NCBI GenBank assembly: GCA_900110635.1
Contig: FOEK01000015.1
Span: 1-64,000 of the forward strand
Direction of reading: 5' to 3'
Source: Lachnospiraceae bacterium NE2001
GTDB lineage: Bacteria; Bacillota; Clostridia; Lachnospirales; Lachnospiraceae
DNA: 64,000 nucleotides
In this document: positions 13,546 through 20,201 of the stretch, piece after piece
Numbering within the stretch: the stretch's first letter is position 1
How the letters are laid out: every line of letters starts with the position of its first letter
Notes under the pieces: model-generated
Seen by the model: only the letters and a program-made list of their open reading frames with translations
What the model was told of the DNA's origin: nothing
Databases searched by the model: none
Program-made: the position numbers and the translations under genes

Positions 13546-14403
13546 ATGAATAAAAAAAATCAAGAAAAAAATCAGACAAATATCAAAGCAATTTCCAAGA
13601 CAAATATAAAGACTAATCTAAGCAAGAACGAAAAAACTGGTATACAGGACATCGGTGAAACCCTCGCCACCTGCAGAAAGCAGGCCGGCTATACCCAGAT
13701 TGATGCAGCCGATGCACTGACAAAAGCCGGATATCCAATACAGAACAAGAGCATCTACGCCTGGGAGAAGAACAAGTCCACACCCAATCCGGCGCAGTTT
13801 CTTCTACTTTGCAAGCTCTACGGCATCACAGATATCTATTCTACCTTTATTGAGTCAAATCCAGAGAATCCTTTTTCCACACTCAACGAGGAGGGCAAAG
13901 AAAAAGCCCTGGATTTCATACGAATCCTAGGGCTGACTGACGAATACCGCAGTGATAATTTAGATATCAACAACAATATCAGTAAAAATATGCAGTTTAA
14001 TAGCAGGGCCACAAAAGATGTGGAACCATCTCCAGTAAAGACCAGAGAGCTTCCTCTGTTCCTTCTTGCCGCCTCCGCAGGAACTGGTGAATTCCTGGAC
14101 GATGAGGCCCACGAGATGGTGGTTGTTGGAAGCGAGGTACCCGAGAAGGCCAGCTTCGGTATCAGACTCAACGGCAACAGTATGGAGCCACGCTACATGA
14201 ACGGTCAGATTGTCTGGGTATACAGAACTACCGAGCTCTTTGATGGTGACATCGGAATCTTCTACCTGGATGGCCAGGCCTACTGTAAGAAGCTCCATAA
14301 AGGAAACGGTGTACTGGAGCTGATTTCATTTAACCCCGACTACAAGCCTATCCCCATACGAGAGAATAGTGACTTCAAGATATTCGGGCGTGTGGTTTCC
14401 TAA
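13546..14403 (+). CDS. LexA-like S24 autocleaving repressor
   Basis: About 285 residues from the ATG at 13546, which has GGGGA 8 nt upstream; a TTG at 13522 is in frame but lacks a ribosome site. After a Lys/Asn-rich N-terminus, an XRE helix-turn-helix lies at about residues 30-95 (IGETLATCRKQAGYTQIDAADALTK). A flexible linker leads to a peptidase S24 domain with the Ala-Gly cleavage site (SAGTG), catalytic Ser in GNSMEP near residue 220, and catalytic Lys in AYCKK near 255. This is the layout of phage-CI and LexA-like regulators that cleave themselves on RecA filaments. It may be the SOS regulator or a paralogue. The stop overlaps the ACP stop by 4 bp. Confidence 0.9.
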   Translation: MNKKNQEKNQTNIKAISKTNIKTNLSKNEKTGIQDIGETLATCRKQAGYTQIDAADALTKAGYPIQNKSIYAWEKNKSTPNPAQFLLLCKLYGITDIYSTFIESNPENPFSTLNEEGKEKALDFIRILGLTDEYRSDNLDINNNISKNMQFNSRATKDVEPSPVKTRELPLFLLAASAGTGEFLDDEAHEMVVVGSEVPEKASFGIRLNGNSMEPRYMNGQIVWVYRTTELFDGDIGIFYLDGQAYCKKLHKGNGVLELISFNPDYKPIPIRENSDFKIFGRVVS

Positions 14404-14624
14404 TCTGTAAGACGCTCAACCATTTCCCAGATAGATTCAGCTGAGTTGAAGTTCTCAGGAATAAGCTCAGCTGGTGAAATGGTTATATCATACTCTTCCT
14501 CCAGTGCTGCTACGAGTGAGATGATGGCAAATGAATCAAGTATCTCGTCATCCACAAGTGTATCACAGGTTTCGATATCCTCACCTGGTATTATCTCTTC
14601 AAGTATTTCAATTATTTTATCCAT
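14400..14624 (-). CDS. DltC-like acyl/aminoacyl carrier protein
   Basis: 74 residues, acidic four-helix carrier. The phosphopantetheine attachment motif is EILDSFAIISL with Ser31; the same LDSFA sequence marks DltC, the D-alanyl carrier protein, rather than fatty-acid ACP (DSLDxVE). The following EEEYDITISPAEL...ENFNSAESI also fits DltC. GGAGG sits 5 nt before the ATG, and the start overlaps the decarboxylase stop by 8 bp, so the two are translationally coupled. It is the last gene of the five-gene operon and should carry the amino acid activated by the DltA-like ligase. Confidence 0.9.
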   Translation of the reverse strand: MDKIIEILEEIIPGEDIETCDTLVDDEILDSFAIISLVAALEEEYDITISPAELIPENFNSAESIWEMVERLTD

Positions 14625-15834
14625 TGTAACCTCCGTTATATATATTAGTTTCTATATGTTCTCTGGCAAGTATCTCCGTGCCTTCCTCATCCCGAATGAC
14701 GATGGCAGGCAGATCTCTGCTGAGAAAGAGCGCTATACCCTCTGTGGCGGAGTAAGCTCCAGCTAGATTGAAGCACAGTATATCTCCAATGTCAAGAGTC
14801 GGAAGCTTAACTCGTCGAACCAATATATCATTGACTGAACAAAGAGAGCCTGCGAGCACATAGTCCTCTCTTGAAGATTTATCATCAGCTCTCTTCTGCG
14901 CGATATGATCAATAGGTGGAACCTTCATTCCAGCCATACTGCCGTAATATGTGATCTGATGCAGACCGCCATCAAGTATGGCGAAGTTTGTTTCAGTGTT
15001 TCTCTTCACATCAGCCACACTTGTAAAATATCTTCCACAGGTTGCCGCAATATATCGGCCATATTCGAAGGTTATATCTGAGTAGCTGTCTCTAAGTCCC
15101 GTCTCATCCACAAGCTTCATAAGCTCTATAAGATAATCTTCGTTATATGATGCATCGACAGTCGTTGACGCATCTGAATCATTTCCAAAATAATCTATCC
15201 CAAGACCCGGACCATATTCAAGACTGATCTTCGCCCCAAGTCGCACCTCAAGCTCCAGCCCATAAGCAGCAAGCTCCGTCAGTTCCTTCTCTATCTTCTT
15301 CACAGATTTCTGTGTCCCTGAGAAATAATGGATTCCAAGAAACTCTAGATACTGTGACTTGATCACTCTGTCAATAAGCTCGTCCATCAAACTCTTATCT
15401 ACGCCAAACTGATTACCAGATGACATACGAATATAACATTTAAGATGAAATGCCTCTGAATCCGCACACTCCCTAGCCACTTCCTCCAGAATCTCAAAGT
15501 GTCTCACTGATTCAATGGAAAAGAGACCCTCGGCACCACCTAGTGAAAGTATCCTTCTCATACTCTCTTTGGTCTTATTTACTCCTGAAACAAGTATCTG
15601 ACCAGGAGTTATGCCATCACGAACACATATCTCATACTCTCCTGGTGAACACACCTCAAGCCTGTCCACGTAAGGCGCAGCATACTTTGCAAGATAGGGA
15701 CCTGCCTTCATAGCATAGCAGAGTCCTATATCCGACTGATGCCCCCTCATCATCTCAATTCTCTTCTTTAATTCAGAGATATCAAAATGATAAAATGGAG
15801 TTCCATATTCTTTTATCAATTCCTGGTTATTCAT
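14617..15834 (-). CDS. Group III PLP-dependent decarboxylase
   Basis: About 405 residues of the alanine-racemase-fold decarboxylases that include diaminopimelate, ornithine and BtrK decarboxylases. PLP Lys43 is in CYAMKAGPY. HYFSGTQ near residue 175 contains the His that stacks on PLP. FEYGRYIAA near 255 takes the place of EPGR, GSLCSVND near 330 supplies the Cys and Asp of the opposite subunit, and LAGAYSATEG near 360 replaces the YSM..N motif of lysA. ATG at 15834 has GAGGG at 5 nt; the longer TTG start is unlikely. Placement between a DltA-like ligase and a carrier protein argues against lysine synthesis and for decarboxylation of a carrier-linked or soon-to-be-loaded amino acid, as BtrK does with glutamyl-ACP. 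Confidence 0.85.
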   Translation of the reverse strand: MNNQELIKEYGTPFYHFDISELKKRIEMMRGHQSDIGLCYAMKAGPYLAKYAAPYVDRLEVCSPGEYEICVRDGITPGQILVSGVNKTKESMRRILSLGGAEGLFSIESVRHFEILEEVARECADSEAFHLKCYIRMSSGNQFGVDKSLMDELIDRVIKSQYLEFLGIHYFSGTQKSVKKIEKELTELAAYGLELEVRLGAKISLEYGPGLGIDYFGNDSDASTTVDASYNEDYLIELMKLVDETGLRDSYSDITFEYGRYIAATCGRYFTSVADVKRNTETNFAILDGGLHQITYYGSMAGMKVPPIDHIAQKRADDKSSREDYVLAGSLCSVNDILVRRVKLPTLDIGDILCFNLAGAYSATEGIALFLSRDLPAIVIRDEEGTEILAREHIETNIYNGGYNG

Positions 15835-15882
15835 AGCATCCCTCAAAGCTTAAAATAACTATTTCAGACTATGGGTTATTAT

Positions 15883-17388
15883 CTAAAGCATTTCCCTCAG
15901 CTTATTTCTATCTATCTTACCATTCTTGCTGAGAGGAAGCTCGTCCATATATTTATATACATTTGGCAGCATATAGTTCGGAAGCTTATCCTTCAGTCCA
16001 GCAACTATCTTCTTCCTATCGGGCTTATCAGCCAAGGCCGGGTCTCCCGTGTAATAAGCCACTATACGGTACTTCTCAGCATCATAGATACAGCAGGCCT
16101 GGCCAATCTCAGGAAGACTGTTCATTGCCCTCTCTATTTCCTCAAGCTCGATCCTGTGGCCATTATGCTTTATCTGGAAGTCACGTCTTCCAGCAAAATG
16201 TAGCAGTCCACCCTTACGATATCCCAGGTCTCCTGTCTTATAAACTCGCCCAATCCCTTCAAGCTCCACAAAGGCCTTTGATGTAGCCTCATCATTATTA
16301 TAGTAGCCAAGAGCGAGCTCATTTCCACCTACACAGATTTCGCCAACAGTCTCTTCTTCAGACGCAGGAATAACACGCCCATTGTCATCCAGAAGATATA
16401 TCACCTTCCCAGGAAAAACCTCTCCTATAGGAAGCTTCTCAGGAACATTCTCTCTATCTATTCTATAGTAAGAGCAGTTACAAGTTATCTCCGTCGGGCC
16501 ATAAAGATTCACAAACTCCGTCTCAGGGTACTGTGCCATCCAGTCCGCAAGGTGCTTTGCTGGCATTTCCTCTCCACTAAAAAGAACCTTATTAATCTTT
16601 GGCGGAACCTTATACATAAACTCGTGGAGCCGGTTCAGCAGAACCAGCGCAGACACAGCCCAGGTAAGAGTAGTCACCTCATATTTTTCCAGCATATCCA
16701 TAACATTATTAGGAAGTCTGAAATATGCAGTTGGAATAATGACCATAGTCGCGCCTGTTTTGAGTGAGCTGTAAATATCCTTTACTGATACATCAAAGTC
16801 AAATGGCGCCTGGTTTCCTATGGTATCTTCTTCAGTTATTCCAAAAAGATTGGTAAATGTATCAATAAAACTAATTACCGAAGCATGTCCAACCAGAACA
16901 CCCTTAGGAACTCCGGTGGAACCAGATGTGAAATTGCAATAAAGTGGCACATCCGGCTGTATGTCAGTATCAACCGTTAACTCCTGGGCGGAACCCACTT
17001 TTCTAAAAAGTTCATCGGTTGTAATAACATTTCCCTTATAATCTAATCTATTCAGCTTCTCAAGACTTTCCGGTTCAGTGATTATCACTGACGGCTTCAG
17101 GGTTTCCAGCTGACTTCTGTGACGCTCATCCGGAAAGTCAGGATCCAGAAGGCAATAAAAGCCTCCCGCATAAACAGTTCCCAGAAAGATCTGAAGAGTC
17201 CTGGTGCTCTTCTTCATCAGAACACCTACTGGTTCCCCTTTTGACACAAACTTGGAAAGAACGCCTCCAATACGGGCGCTAGTGTTCCTAAGTTCAGCAA
17301 AGGTACAGGACTCCGAGCCATCTGTGACAGCCAGCTTATCAGGCAGTCTTGATGCTGTATTTTCTAAATACTCAAGTACATTCTTCAT
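15883..17388 (-). CDS. DltA-like amino acid:carrier protein ligase
   Basis: 501 residues, the length of DltA. AMP-binding core motif FTSGSTGVPKGVLVGH near residue 153, substrate-side APFDFDVSVKDIYSSL near 192-207 whose Asp would bind the alpha-amino group, LYGPTEITCNC near 293, YKTGDLGY near 382, the hinge GRRDFQIKHNGHRIELEEIE near 397, and catalytic Lys in LSKNGKIDR near the C-terminus. It should adenylate an amino acid and load it on the carrier encoded at 14400. The segment LFSGEEMP has Ser where, as I recall, DltA enzymes have a Cys (FCGE) that helps select D-alanine, so another amino acid may be used. AAGGA precedes the ATG. Confidence 0.85.
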   Translation of the reverse strand: MKNVLEYLENTASRLPDKLAVTDGSESCTFAELRNTSARIGGVLSKFVSKGEPVGVLMKKSTRTLQIFLGTVYAGGFYCLLDPDFPDERHRSQLETLKPSVIITEPESLEKLNRLDYKGNVITTDELFRKVGSAQELTVDTDIQPDVPLYCNFTSGSTGVPKGVLVGHASVISFIDTFTNLFGITEEDTIGNQAPFDFDVSVKDIYSSLKTGATMVIIPTAYFRLPNNVMDMLEKYEVTTLTWAVSALVLLNRLHEFMYKVPPKINKVLFSGEEMPAKHLADWMAQYPETEFVNLYGPTEITCNCSYYRIDRENVPEKLPIGEVFPGKVIYLLDDNGRVIPASEEETVGEICVGGNELALGYYNNDEATSKAFVELEGIGRVYKTGDLGYRKGGLLHFAGRRDFQIKHNGHRIELEEIERAMNSLPEIGQACCIYDAEKYRIVAYYTGDPALADKPDRKKIVAGLKDKLPNYMLPNVYKYMDELPLSKNGKIDRNKLREML

Positions 17389-17417
17389 TTATTTTCCTTA
17401 TTTCATATCTCTCAAAT

Positions 17418-17449
17418 ATCCGAGCTTTCTAATATCTGAGTTTTCTAAT
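17418..17449 (-). repeat. Two 16-bp direct repeats before the DltA-like gene
   Basis: ATCCGAGCTTTCTAAT (17418-17433) and ATCTGAGTTTTCTAAT (17434-17449) are adjacent copies with two differences; a fainter third copy precedes them. They lie in the 88-bp gap between the SGNH and ligase genes, the only sizeable gap of the operon. Purpose unknown. Confidence 0.6.
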
Positions 17450-17476
17450 AAGCATTCTTCCATAACCATATACTGA

Positions 17477-18463
17477 TCAGTCTTCTCGATGATCCGGCAG
17501 GTCATAATTCTCCTCCAGATAATTTATCAGATACTTGGTAGTTTTTTCGGCACCATAACAATTGATATGGTCCCCGGCATCACCAGTATCCTGGCTCCAG
17601 TCTATTCCAATCTCGTCCTTCAGCACGTTGAAATCTATAAAGTCCAGACCGTGCTTATCAGCATAATCCTGAAGAGTATTATGTTTAGGATAGTTCATAT
17701 TGACAGGAGATGGTGAACTGATAAGCACGAGAGGTATATTCTTTTCGTCGCAAAGCTTTCGTATCTTATCCAGGTTGTAGATGGCAATACAGTTTATGTC
17801 GCCCCGCTCCTCAGTCTCGACCATATATTCTTCGCCATTATACGGATCAACAACCTCTATCTTTTCATAGCCCCGCTCCACATCATACGCTTCAGGCTCC
17901 TCAAGTCCGCTCAGATAACGCCAGTTGCTATGATATCTGATAACCGGAAATAAATCATTTATTATGGCACTGTTCGTAACCAGAGCCTCCGTTTTCAGCA
18001 TTGTAGGCTGAGCTATAACATTTGTCTCAAGAAGTATCACCTGCGGATGCTGCTTCTTCAGTATCTTCTGGGTAAAAAGATAAGTATCAAAGGATCTCTG
18101 TCCCAGCTGATTGCAATTATAAGCAGAGATACCAGCCTCGTCCATCATCATTTGAGGCGAAGCAACCACCATTGCTTCACTGTCGCCTATAATAAGGACA
18201 TCCATAGTATCACTTTTCTCATTAAGAGCCGCAGTCACATTCTTATCACGAGGCAGGACCATCTCCGGCCTGTCAGTCCGAACCGGATCAATAGCATAAG
18301 ACATAACCTTAAGAATAACTGAAAATGTCAGCAGGAAGCCAAATATCTCAAGCCATCCCAATGCCTTTTTCCTTGTCTTTGAGGTATCAGTTTTGTCCTT
18401 CTCGGGAATTTTCTTAGATTCAGTTGTCTCTGGTTCAGTTGTCTTCACATCAGAATCCTGCAT
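17477..18463 (-). CDS. Membrane-anchored SGNH/DltD-like protein
   Basis: 328 residues. A charged cytoplasmic N-terminus of about 30 residues is followed by one membrane segment (about 33-52, LGWLEIFGFLLTFSVILKV), which would place the rest outside the cell. The SGNH nucleophile block is VLIIGDSEAM near residue 90 and the Asp-His pair is DAGDHINCYG near 295. Such proteins accompany MBOAT transferases (DltD with DltB, AlgJ/AlgX with AlgI) and move the acyl group to the final acceptor. The start overlaps the MBOAT stop by 14 bp; GGAGG lies 12 nt upstream, inside the MBOAT gene. Sequence resemblance to DltD is limited to the fold motifs. Confidence 0.8.
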   Translation of the reverse strand: MQDSDVKTTEPETTESKKIPEKDKTDTSKTRKKALGWLEIFGFLLTFSVILKVMSYAIDPVRTDRPEMVLPRDKNVTAALNEKSDTMDVLIIGDSEAMVVASPQMMMDEAGISAYNCNQLGQRSFDTYLFTQKILKKQHPQVILLETNVIAQPTMLKTEALVTNSAIINDLFPVIRYHSNWRYLSGLEEPEAYDVERGYEKIEVVDPYNGEEYMVETEERGDINCIAIYNLDKIRKLCDEKNIPLVLISSPSPVNMNYPKHNTLQDYADKHGLDFIDFNVLKDEIGIDWSQDTGDAGDHINCYGAEKTTKYLINYLEENYDLPDHRED

Positions 18464-20060
18464 AGATTAGATCCACCTCCTCAAAGCCTGGTCCGTAGCA
18501 TCCAAAGATAGTAAGAACCAGAAGTAATGATAGAACAAGTCCCCATCTAACCAGCAGCGGTCTTCTGAGCAGAGCATCAGTTACGTCGACACCCTTCTCT
18601 CTGATGATATTTACCACTATAACAATAGCAATGGCAAATGCTACCACCGCCCAGTCATATATATCAAGCCCCCAGCCAAGAGCTGTGCCATTCCACAGTA
18701 TACTGATGCCAGAGCCTTTACCAATATCCCTTACCATACGGAAGCCTTCCTTTAGGGAATCTGCCTCAAAGAAAAGCTCTCCTGCAAATATGATAACCCA
18801 GGTCTTAAGAATCCTGATAACATTTACCACCTTATTGTCTTTAGTTGTATGAAAAAGCTTCAGTACCGCATCGCCAACGGGTTCCAGCAAAAGCTCCAGC
18901 AGGATTACTACGAAGTAAAAGATTCCATAAAAGATATAAGTCCACTTTGGGCCGTGCCACAGTCCATTGCATAACCACACAGGAAGAAGCGCCATGGCTG
19001 ACGCAACAACCATAGTCATATGCTTGTTCACCTTACCACGGGCGAACTTATTCCATTTCTTAGCCAGTCCCGACATAGACACAGGGTAGAATATGTAGGT
19101 CTTAAACCATACACCCAGTGATATATGCCAGCGACGCCAGAACTCTGAAGCGTTCCTCGCCAGGAACGGCTGGCGGAAGTTCTCTGGCAGCTTGATACCG
19201 AAGATCATAGCTATACCGATCACCATATCCATACAGCCTGAGAAGTCCATATACTCCATTACTGTAAATAGGACCGCAGCCACAATAACTGCGGCACCCT
19301 TGGTTTTATTTGCCGGATCAAACAAATATACAACAGCAGGATTCAGCCTGTCTGCAATGACCAGTTTCTTTGAAACACCCCAGATGAAACGTGTATAGCC
19401 CCTTATTACGTTATCTGGATCAATCGCATTTCCCTCATATATTCTGTCCTTCATTTCAGCATAAAGAGCGATAGGACCTTCTATAATAGTCGGGAAAAAG
19501 CTGAGGAACAGAAGAAGCTTAAATGGATTACGCTGTGCTTCAAACTTGCCCCAATAGACGTCAGCCATATAGCTGATGGCCTGCATTGTGTAAAATGAGA
19601 TTCCAAGAGGCAGTGCCAGAGCCTTTGCTGGCAGGATTGGAGAATCCTCTGATGCACCTGCAAGAAGATTAATATTCTCAGCAAAGAAGTTGTAATATTT
19701 AAGATATAAAAGACTGGAAAGTGCCAGCACTATTCCAATAACTAAGATCAGCCTGCTTCTTCTCTGGAACCTCGCCTTTATCATCGCCTTCTCTTCTTTT
19801 GAAGAGGCACTCTTGTCCTTTTTGACGAGACCTAGAGCAGCCTTTCTGTCTTTACTTACCTTCTCCAGAATAAGACCCGTGGAGTAGGTGATAGCAGTCG
19901 CAAGAATCAGGAATATAAAAAGTTTAAATGAGAATGAGAAATAATACCCTACGCTCGCCACCATAAGAAAAACCCAGCGGAAACGTTTAGGGAATATCTG
20001 ATATATTATCATTATAAGCGGCAGAAACAGCATGCCAAAAACTAATTCATAGTAAAGCAC
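18450..20060 (-). CDS. MBOAT family membrane O-acyltransferase (DltB/AlgI type)
   Basis: 536 residues with about ten or more hydrophobic segments from the N-terminus (LVFGMLFLPLIMIIYQIF). Family hallmarks are LGISFYTMQAISYMADVYWG near residue 150, the FWRRWHISLGVWFKTYIFYP block near 310, and the putative catalytic His in CNGLWHGPKWTYIFYG near 368. MBOAT proteins of this branch pass acyl or aminoacyl groups from a cytoplasmic carrier across the membrane to polysaccharide or teichoic acid. It is the first gene of the five-gene operon. The insertion SKEEKAMIKARFQRRSR near residue 95 is a cytoplasmic loop. Confidence 0.93.
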   Translation of the reverse strand: MLYYELVFGMLFLPLIMIIYQIFPKRFRWVFLMVASVGYYFSFSFKLFIFLILATAITYSTGLILEKVSKDRKAALGLVKKDKSASSKEEKAMIKARFQRRSRLILVIGIVLALSSLLYLKYYNFFAENINLLAGASEDSPILPAKALALPLGISFYTMQAISYMADVYWGKFEAQRNPFKLLLFLSFFPTIIEGPIALYAEMKDRIYEGNAIDPDNVIRGYTRFIWGVSKKLVIADRLNPAVVYLFDPANKTKGAAVIVAAVLFTVMEYMDFSGCMDMVIGIAMIFGIKLPENFRQPFLARNASEFWRRWHISLGVWFKTYIFYPVSMSGLAKKWNKFARGKVNKHMTMVVASAMALLPVWLCNGLWHGPKWTYIFYGIFYFVVILLELLLEPVGDAVLKLFHTTKDNKVVNVIRILKTWVIIFAGELFFEADSLKEGFRMVRDIGKGSGISILWNGTALGWGLDIYDWAVVAFAIAIVIVVNIIREKGVDVTDALLRRPLLVRWGLVLSLLLVLTIFGCYGPGFEEVDLIYAGF

Positions 20061-20118: not shown

Positions 20119-20161
20119 AGTCACACAAGTATCCTACATCATAACACAGTCAATACAATAA

Positions 20162-20193
20162 TAAAAGAGCTTGTCTAATGACAAGCTCTTTTA
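20162..20193. terminator. Terminator of the HTH-desulfoferrodoxin gene
   Basis: TAAAAGAGCTTGTC and GACAAGCTCTTTTA pair over 14 bp around a 4-nt loop TAAT, 8 bp after the stop at 20202. It is A/U-flanked on both sides, so it can act in both directions. The stem AGAGCTTGTC recurs at 31769. Confidence 0.9.
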
Positions 20194-20201
20194 TATCATT
20201 T

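Follow-up and report, generated by a model that had tools for sequence, protein, structure and literature searches.

The window analysed here comprises the first 64,000 nucleotides of contig FOEK01000015.1 from Lachnospiraceae bacterium NE2001 (GCA_900110635.1). Between positions 14400 and 20060 its minus strand carries five intact open reading frames (ORFs), head to tail and tightly packed, as a sequence-only reading of this DNA had described. In the order in which they are read, they encode an MBOAT acyltransferase (18450..20060; 536 amino acids, GTG start), an SGNH protein (17477..18463; 328 amino acids), a DltA-like amino acid adenylating ligase (15883..17388; 501 amino acids), a BtrK-like fold-III pyridoxal phosphate (PLP) decarboxylase (14617..15846; 409 amino acids) and a DltC-like acyl carrier protein (14400..14624; 74 amino acids). 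The MBOAT and SGNH genes overlap by 14 bases and the decarboxylase and carrier genes by 8, and the remaining gaps are 88 and 36 bases long. Every operon protein except the SGNH protein has Pfam and NCBIfam matches. Because the same gene set recurs across Lachnospiraceae, it is more than a chance assembly, and we lean towards reading it as a surface-acylation operon of a Dlt-like kind in which the acyl group is tailored while bound to its carrier.

The operon decarboxylase groups with BtrK

The decarboxylase matched both Orn/DAP/Arg decarboxylase domains in Pfam. Its top curated model was TIGR03099 (146.2 bits against a cut-off of 478.45), followed by the lysA model, whose 142.3 bits fall under the cut-off of 297.9 for a LysA assignment. 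Lys47, Cys336 and Asp340 are invariant in our decarboxylase alignment (A1). The closest solved structures by sequence were two BtrK entries (E values 9.2e-29 and 1.1e-28), one of which is named L-glutamyl-[BtrI acyl-carrier protein] decarboxylase; next came 6KNH and the best-matching LysA, that of Aquifex, both at 1.6e-18. In LysA, the RPxxY and CExxD motifs supply residues that hold the far end of the substrate. Both motifs occur in 21/21 LysA sequences (19 from Lachnospiraceae, with L189 and L191 left out of 21 near-full family loci, plus E. coli and Aquifex) and in 0/83 operon enzymes. The window's genome also encodes a separate LysA bearing RPAMY and CENND.

Phylogeny agreed with the structure search in placing the enzyme closer to BtrK than to LysA. 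An IQ-TREE analysis of 45 sequences, taken from the 111 in the FastTree alignment, placed the 29 operon decarboxylases in a single clade (100/100), and a branch with 100/99 support united them with BtrK, 6KNH and L210-L213 while leaving out all nine LysA sequences. The FastTree first pass on all 111 rows recovered this grouping too, less strongly supported (0.786 for the operon clade). The sequence-only reading had likened the decarboxylase to BtrK and had named grouping with LysA beforehand as refuting; that grouping failed in the trees and in the motifs, and judged by its sequence the operon decarboxylase is not a LysA.

Two kinds of variant were seen among these enzymes. In the A1 rows from L044, L046, L047 and L049, Gln replaces the His of the GIHYFSG stretch seen in the window, a position at which the His of kin enzymes stacks on PLP. 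Transglutaminase-like domains occur fused to the decarboxylase at L088:5741-8560 and beside the operon at L050:8305-9345 and L163:4962-6155; L092:4713-8057 is also a long decarboxylase fusion, perhaps with a transglutaminase-like part too.

The gene set recurs in gut and rumen Lachnospiraceae

The decarboxylase was found at an E value of 1e-20 in 89 of 397 sampled Lachnospiraceae genomes, and at 1e-25 in 8 of the 398 genomes of a phylum-wide sample, the window's own genome being included in both counts. Four of the eight phylum matches were weak with no operon seen; for one of these four (L211) the contig is too short for a verdict. All five genes also occur outside the family, at L208, from a different family in the class, and at L209, from the same phylum. 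The 21 named matches, from a scan that reaches close relatives only, all belong to Lachnospiraceae, Eubacterium, Butyrivibrio, Roseburia or uncultured Clostridia/Clostridiales. The operon is carried by many gut and rumen Lachnospiraceae.

We compared gene neighborhoods at 83 loci, the window among them, drawn from 60 of the 89 family genomes, 20 of the 21 named loci (L126 being a fragment) and L208, L209 and L214; they hold 81 distinct decarboxylase sequences (L116 equals L038, and L120 equals L041). Ligase and carrier lie no more than two positions from the decarboxylase at 80/83 loci (the exceptions are L050, L068 and L070), a count that takes in L096, which is a different system. At 71/83 loci all five genes lie inside 4.2 kb, in several orders, the commonest being ligase-decarboxylase-carrier-MBOAT-SGNH (38 loci) and MBOAT-SGNH-ligase-decarboxylase-carrier as in the window (21 loci). 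That the decarboxylase would be conserved with the cluster, a point on which the sequence-only reading had staked its case, is borne out by this linkage. A canonical-like DltA (at least 500 bits) occurs in 17/397 genomes, one of them joined from pieces, with eight above the curated cut-off, and it coexists with the operon decarboxylase in four genomes (G082, G090, G152 and G388).

A DltA-like ligase with an altered pocket

The ligase has an AMP-binding domain (E value 2.4e-64) and falls short of the curated subfamily cut-offs compared here. The best DltA subfamily model gave 321.7 bits against a cut-off of 476, a further curated model testing for DltA gave 305.9 against 559.85, and the exosortase-A ligase model TIGR03098 also matched, at 177.5 against 592.35. 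Its structural model (predicted local distance difference test, pLDDT, 90.1) retrieved adenylation domains and DltA in Foldseek. The genome holds no further DltA-like ligase, the next match scoring 61 bits.

Alignment with the DltA proteins of L152 and L166 places D199, K203 and S271 of the window ligase opposite D, M and C; the stretch D199-V-S-V-K203 is encoded at 16780..16794 on the minus strand. Of the 80 ligases from decarboxylase-bearing loci, 74 show the resulting pattern, DVK..S..TCN, and 73 of these have FS. The other six comprise IAR pockets in L063, L065 and L091, DAK pockets in L088 and L092, and L096. L063, L065 and L091 form a subtype with the carrier gene between ligase and decarboxylase, and since their pocket lacks the Asp they probably use a different substrate. 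Peptide-synthetase codes for glutamate carry Lys at the position matching K203, and a conserved Lys203 would suit a second carboxylate. For the ligase VinN, an extract of PMC7756342 gives Asp230 as the proposed amine-binding residue and Ser299 and Arg331 as those for the alpha-carboxylate.

A carrier combined with a probably self-shuttling MBOAT

The carrier has a PP-binding domain (PF00550, E value 3.4e-6) and the LDSFA motif noted in the sequence-only reading, with the codon of Ser31, the expected phosphopantetheine site, at 14532..14534. DltC is its second curated match and a weak one (36.7 bits against a cut-off of 68).

The MBOAT (PF03062, E value 7.9e-17) scored 139.7 bits with the LTA_dltB model, under the cut-off of 375 for a DltB, and matched two PDB sequences at an E value of 0.001, both DltB. 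Its C-terminus reads LIYAGF (18453..18470, minus strand), comparable to the FXYXXF acyl-shuttle motif described in PMC12148441. According to the portions of that article drawn on here, the motif's tyrosine at the C-terminus of PatA takes the acyl group and gives it to the SGNH partner, and in Dlt the motif is located on the microprotein DltX. Among MBOATs of at least 450 amino acids, the fourth-last residue is Tyr in 72/72 decarboxylase-bearing loci and 25/25 others, and the first Phe of the motif is often Leu, Met or Pro. MBOATs beside canonical-like DltA are 382-404 amino acids long and have the shuttle Tyr in 0/6 loci (L146, L152, L166, L171, L173 and L174); L172 had no MBOAT match at its locus. 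As the operon's MBOAT bears its own C-terminal tyrosine, a carrier and a self-shuttling MBOAT appear to be combined in one system.

The SGNH protein had no Pfam or NCBIfam match at an E value of 0.001, and no DltD was recognised by sequence. Its AlphaFold2 model, based on an alignment of 26 proteins (pLDDT 89.5), shows a single helix at the N-terminus and an SGNH domain; the top Foldseek matches (E value 1e-6) were GDSL enzymes, E. coli TesA among them, with PatB (4.3e-4) and DltD (5.5e-4) among the weaker matches. S95 of the GDS motif and H299 of the DHIN motif are invariant in alignment A3, whose rows were mostly picked for GDS. Across the SGNH proteins of decarboxylase-bearing loci, aligned together with that of the window, the Ser (GxS) is present in 69/72 proteins and the His in 72/72, three proteins carrying GDC. 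The MBOAT thus has an FXYXXF-type shuttle and its SGNH partner an aligned Ser and His, the features of an MBOAT-SGNH pair. The earlier call of an SGNH protein holds up, and the accompanying label ‘DltD-like’ applies, on the model, at fold level only.

A proposed pathway of loading, decarboxylation and transfer

With this gene set, its catalytic residues, folds and shuttle motif, and its conserved linkage in hand, we infer the substrate, order, product and acceptor as follows. The ligase would activate an aspartate- or glutamate-like dicarboxylic amino acid by its distal carboxyl and load it on the carrier. There the decarboxylase, by its kinship with BtrK and its loss of the LysA motifs, would strip the alpha-carboxylate and leave an omega-aminoacyl thioester, most likely beta-alanyl and less likely 4-aminobutyryl or 3-aminoisobutyryl. 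The MBOAT, by comparison with PatA and DltX, would pass the carrier's acyl group through the membrane to the tyrosine of its own LIYAGF, and the catalytic serine of the SGNH protein would then attach it to a surface polymer at one of the polymer's hydroxyls. The outcome would be a cationic cell-surface ester distinct from D-alanine.

The sequence-only reading had offered a gamma-aminobutyric acid (GABA)-like group as its example. GABA thioesters tend to lactamise, and this chemistry demotes GABA and makes a beta-alanyl group derived from aspartate the favoured product. Loading before decarboxylation has a precedent in vicenistatin biosynthesis, where, as an extract of PMC11284099 has it, VinN loads VinL with 3-methylaspartate (3-MeAsp) rather than with its decarboxylated form, and decarboxylation by VinO follows. 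The same order is proposed by the authors for BolO, BolC and BolN (PMC7756342, in extract). Hints to the acceptor are thin: a sulfatase-family (LtaS-like) gene lies near L052 and L085, one such protein is encoded in the window's genome, and a sugar-polymer cluster surrounds L081.

Several observations weigh against this pathway. The first concern the decarboxylase, whose direct sister in the tree is the 6KNH/L213 pair (94/89), with BtrK at the next fork (87/54); IQ-TREE also gave long-branch warnings at the E. coli LysA end. We take 6KNH to be an enzyme of siderophore biosynthesis whose substrate is a diamino acid in conjugated form. Linkage is also incomplete at 12/83 loci: nine lack a linked MBOAT and SGNH, L050 has no carrier close by, and L096 and L124 represent different systems. 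Eight of the nine genomes with no linked MBOAT were searched; six hold a close MBOAT elsewhere (E value 2e-102 or better), and G320 and G101 hold only distant ones. The one other genome of the same genus in the sample, G160, has no decarboxylase.

The pocket raises further difficulties. DVK..S..TCN also occurs in 6/40 ligases of decarboxylase-less loci (L128, L141, L148, L150, L151 and L163); the 40 were chosen by DltA score, not at random, and some of their genomes hold a decarboxylase elsewhere. L150 is such a case, its contig being short and its genome having a decarboxylase at another place, and L151 lies in G082, which is also decarboxylase-bearing. A direct decarboxylase search of the four remaining same-pocket genomes gave weak matches in G002, G158 and G176 (E values 5e-10 to 5e-7), that in G002 being its LysA, and none in G276. 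A pocket shared by genomes that lack the decarboxylase means that the ligase's amino acid may need no decarboxylation. The ligase tree places L163 and L150 inside the decarboxylase clade, with L128, L141, L148 and L151 as its sisters; together with the decarboxylase-less sharers, this placement suggests that the pocket is probably older than the decarboxylase or independent of it. The correlation of pocket with decarboxylase (74/80 against 6/40) was accordingly dropped as decisive evidence, as decarboxylase-less sisters share the pocket and a test on independent pairs in the tree finds too small a number of independent changes for a verdict. Being common to these few relatives, the pocket alone is no proof of a decarboxylation step. 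Finally, Asp199 occupies the position that binds the alpha-amine in ordinary alpha-amino-acid ligases, which makes loading through the alpha-carboxyl possible, and if the alpha-carboxyl were loaded, PLP-dependent decarboxylation on the carrier would fail for Asp or Glu.

Alternative explanations

The alternative that survives best, though we think it improbable, reverses the order: the decarboxylase acts on free Asp or Glu, the ligase loads the free omega-amino acid, and MBOAT and SGNH export the same product. It would account for same-pocket ligases in decarboxylase-less genomes, which could draw beta-alanine from another source. Lys203, in so far as it suits a second carboxylate, speaks for loading of the dicarboxylic acid instead, as does the naming of the nearest structure, BtrK, for a carrier-bound substrate, and VinN accepts 3-MeAsp and not the decarboxylated amino acid (PMC11284099, in extract).

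A fold-III racemase or epimerase acting on the carrier, so that a D-aminoacyl thioester is formed and, as with Dlt, the final ester is that of a D-amino acid, strikes us as quite unlikely. Alanine racemase shares the fold, Ala_racemase_N matches L088 at an E value of 1.9e-7, and Lys with an opposed Cys could in principle act as two bases. Set against this, the operon enzyme has the decarboxylase C-terminal domain, with the invariant Cys336 and Asp340 noted above, and groups with proteins named decarboxylases, and we know of no racemase in the BtrK/6KNH-type group.

We give slightly less credence still to a pathway in which the ligase loads a diamino dicarboxylic acid, such as meso-diaminopimelate, whose far end the enzyme then trims to leave a lysyl thioester. 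Kinship with the LysA superfamily would fit, as would the lost far-end residues of LysA if that end were tied to the carrier. Free lysine could be loaded directly, though, the genome has its own LysA, and BtrK and 6KNH are closer to the enzyme than LysA.

An ordinary dlt operon that places D-alanine on teichoic acid beside an unrelated lysA paralogue is similarly disfavoured, for while Dlt models are the best curated match for the ligase and MBOAT and the second for the carrier, it is contradicted by the conserved linkage, the non-LysA clade, the changed pocket, the lack of a DltD recognisable by sequence, the shuttle motif on the MBOAT itself and the four genomes in which the decarboxylase coexists with a canonical-like dltA.

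Decarboxylase-less relatives and a possible modular family

Most of the 40 decarboxylase-less loci have carrier, MBOAT and SGNH matches near the ligase. Eleven were examined gene by gene, and five of these have another enzyme between ligase and carrier: a formyltransferase in L141, L151 and L135, and a GNAT acetyltransferase in L137 and L134. Occupation of this position by other enzymes supports its being a slot for changes to the aminoacyl group on the carrier, and the formyltransferases, identified by sequence, suggest N-formylated aminoacyl groups there. The decarboxylase operon may therefore be one branch of a modular family. We tentatively put forward, at slightly less than even confidence, a large, undescribed Lachnospiraceae family of carrier-based surface decoration in which a constant chassis (ligase, carrier, self-shuttling MBOAT and SGNH) is joined by an exchangeable on-carrier tailoring enzyme, or by none, that sets the acyl group. 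Such tailoring on a chassis, if true, would resemble that by the tailoring enzymes of peptide synthetases.

Relation to known systems

The favoured reading, a surface-acylation operon with decarboxylation on the carrier, shares with the Dlt pathway (DltA-DltC-DltB-DltX-DltD) a DltA-like ligase, a DltC-like presumed donor carrier and transfer by MBOAT and SGNH proteins. It differs in the added decarboxylase, in the pocket (K for M and S for C), in having no DltD by sequence, in an MBOAT of 536 rather than 382-404 amino acids, and in a shuttle tyrosine on the MBOAT's own C-terminus instead of on DltX (ORFs under 60 amino acids were not searched for DltX). Like BtrI and BtrK of butirosin biosynthesis, the latter the closest structure by sequence, the operon sets a fold-III PLP decarboxylase beside a stand-alone carrier; BtrK serves an antibiotic with no membrane transfer, and to our knowledge its carrier is not loaded by a DltA-like ligase. 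VinN/VinL/VinO (vicenistatin) and BolO/BolC/BolN (bolagladins) are closer in combining a ligase, a stand-alone carrier and a PLP decarboxylase acting after loading, as far as the extracts cited above describe them, but they supply a polyketide or peptide synthetase and not an MBOAT-SGNH pair, and the Bol roles are the authors' proposal. The exosortase-A ligase and decarboxylase models (TIGR03098 and TIGR03099), compared by model score only, both match far under their cut-offs.

PatA and PatB, of peptidoglycan O-acetylation, resemble the transfer half in pairing a separate SGNH protein with an MBOAT that has a C-terminal FXYXXF-type motif; PatA uses acetyl-CoA as donor, whereas the operon encodes a carrier protein as the presumed donor. 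The extract of PMC12148441 states as a pattern that MBOAT/SGNH pathways other than Dlt have no carrier protein and use acyl-CoA, and the operon departs from it. The five-gene set has no apparent description among the open-access papers searched. Its parts are of known kinds: the trio of ligase, carrier and decarboxylase is known from VinN/VinL/VinO (PMC11284099, in extract), and its union with an MBOAT and an SGNH protein seems new. Taken overall, the earlier interpretation is partly supported.

If the favoured reading is true, decarboxylation on a carrier gives common gut and rumen bacteria a surface decoration whose amino acid is not D-alanine. Compared with an alpha-aminoacyl ester, a beta-alanyl ester would keep its positive charge to higher pH and better resist hydrolysis, which would matter for the charge of the surface, for how cells withstand cationic peptides and for how the immune system recognises commensals. 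The operon would also join carrier-bound tailoring, known from natural-product pathways, with MBOAT-SGNH transfer, two mechanisms that have been studied apart.

Other features of the window and genome

Between a helix-turn-helix gene and the start of the MBOAT gene, positions 20161-20194 of the window form a strong palindromic, terminator-like stem. Elsewhere in the same genome, contig C37 carries a second acylation cluster (L167) made up of a LuxE/LuxC-like protein, an AMP ligase, an AlgX-type SGNH protein and two MBOATs.

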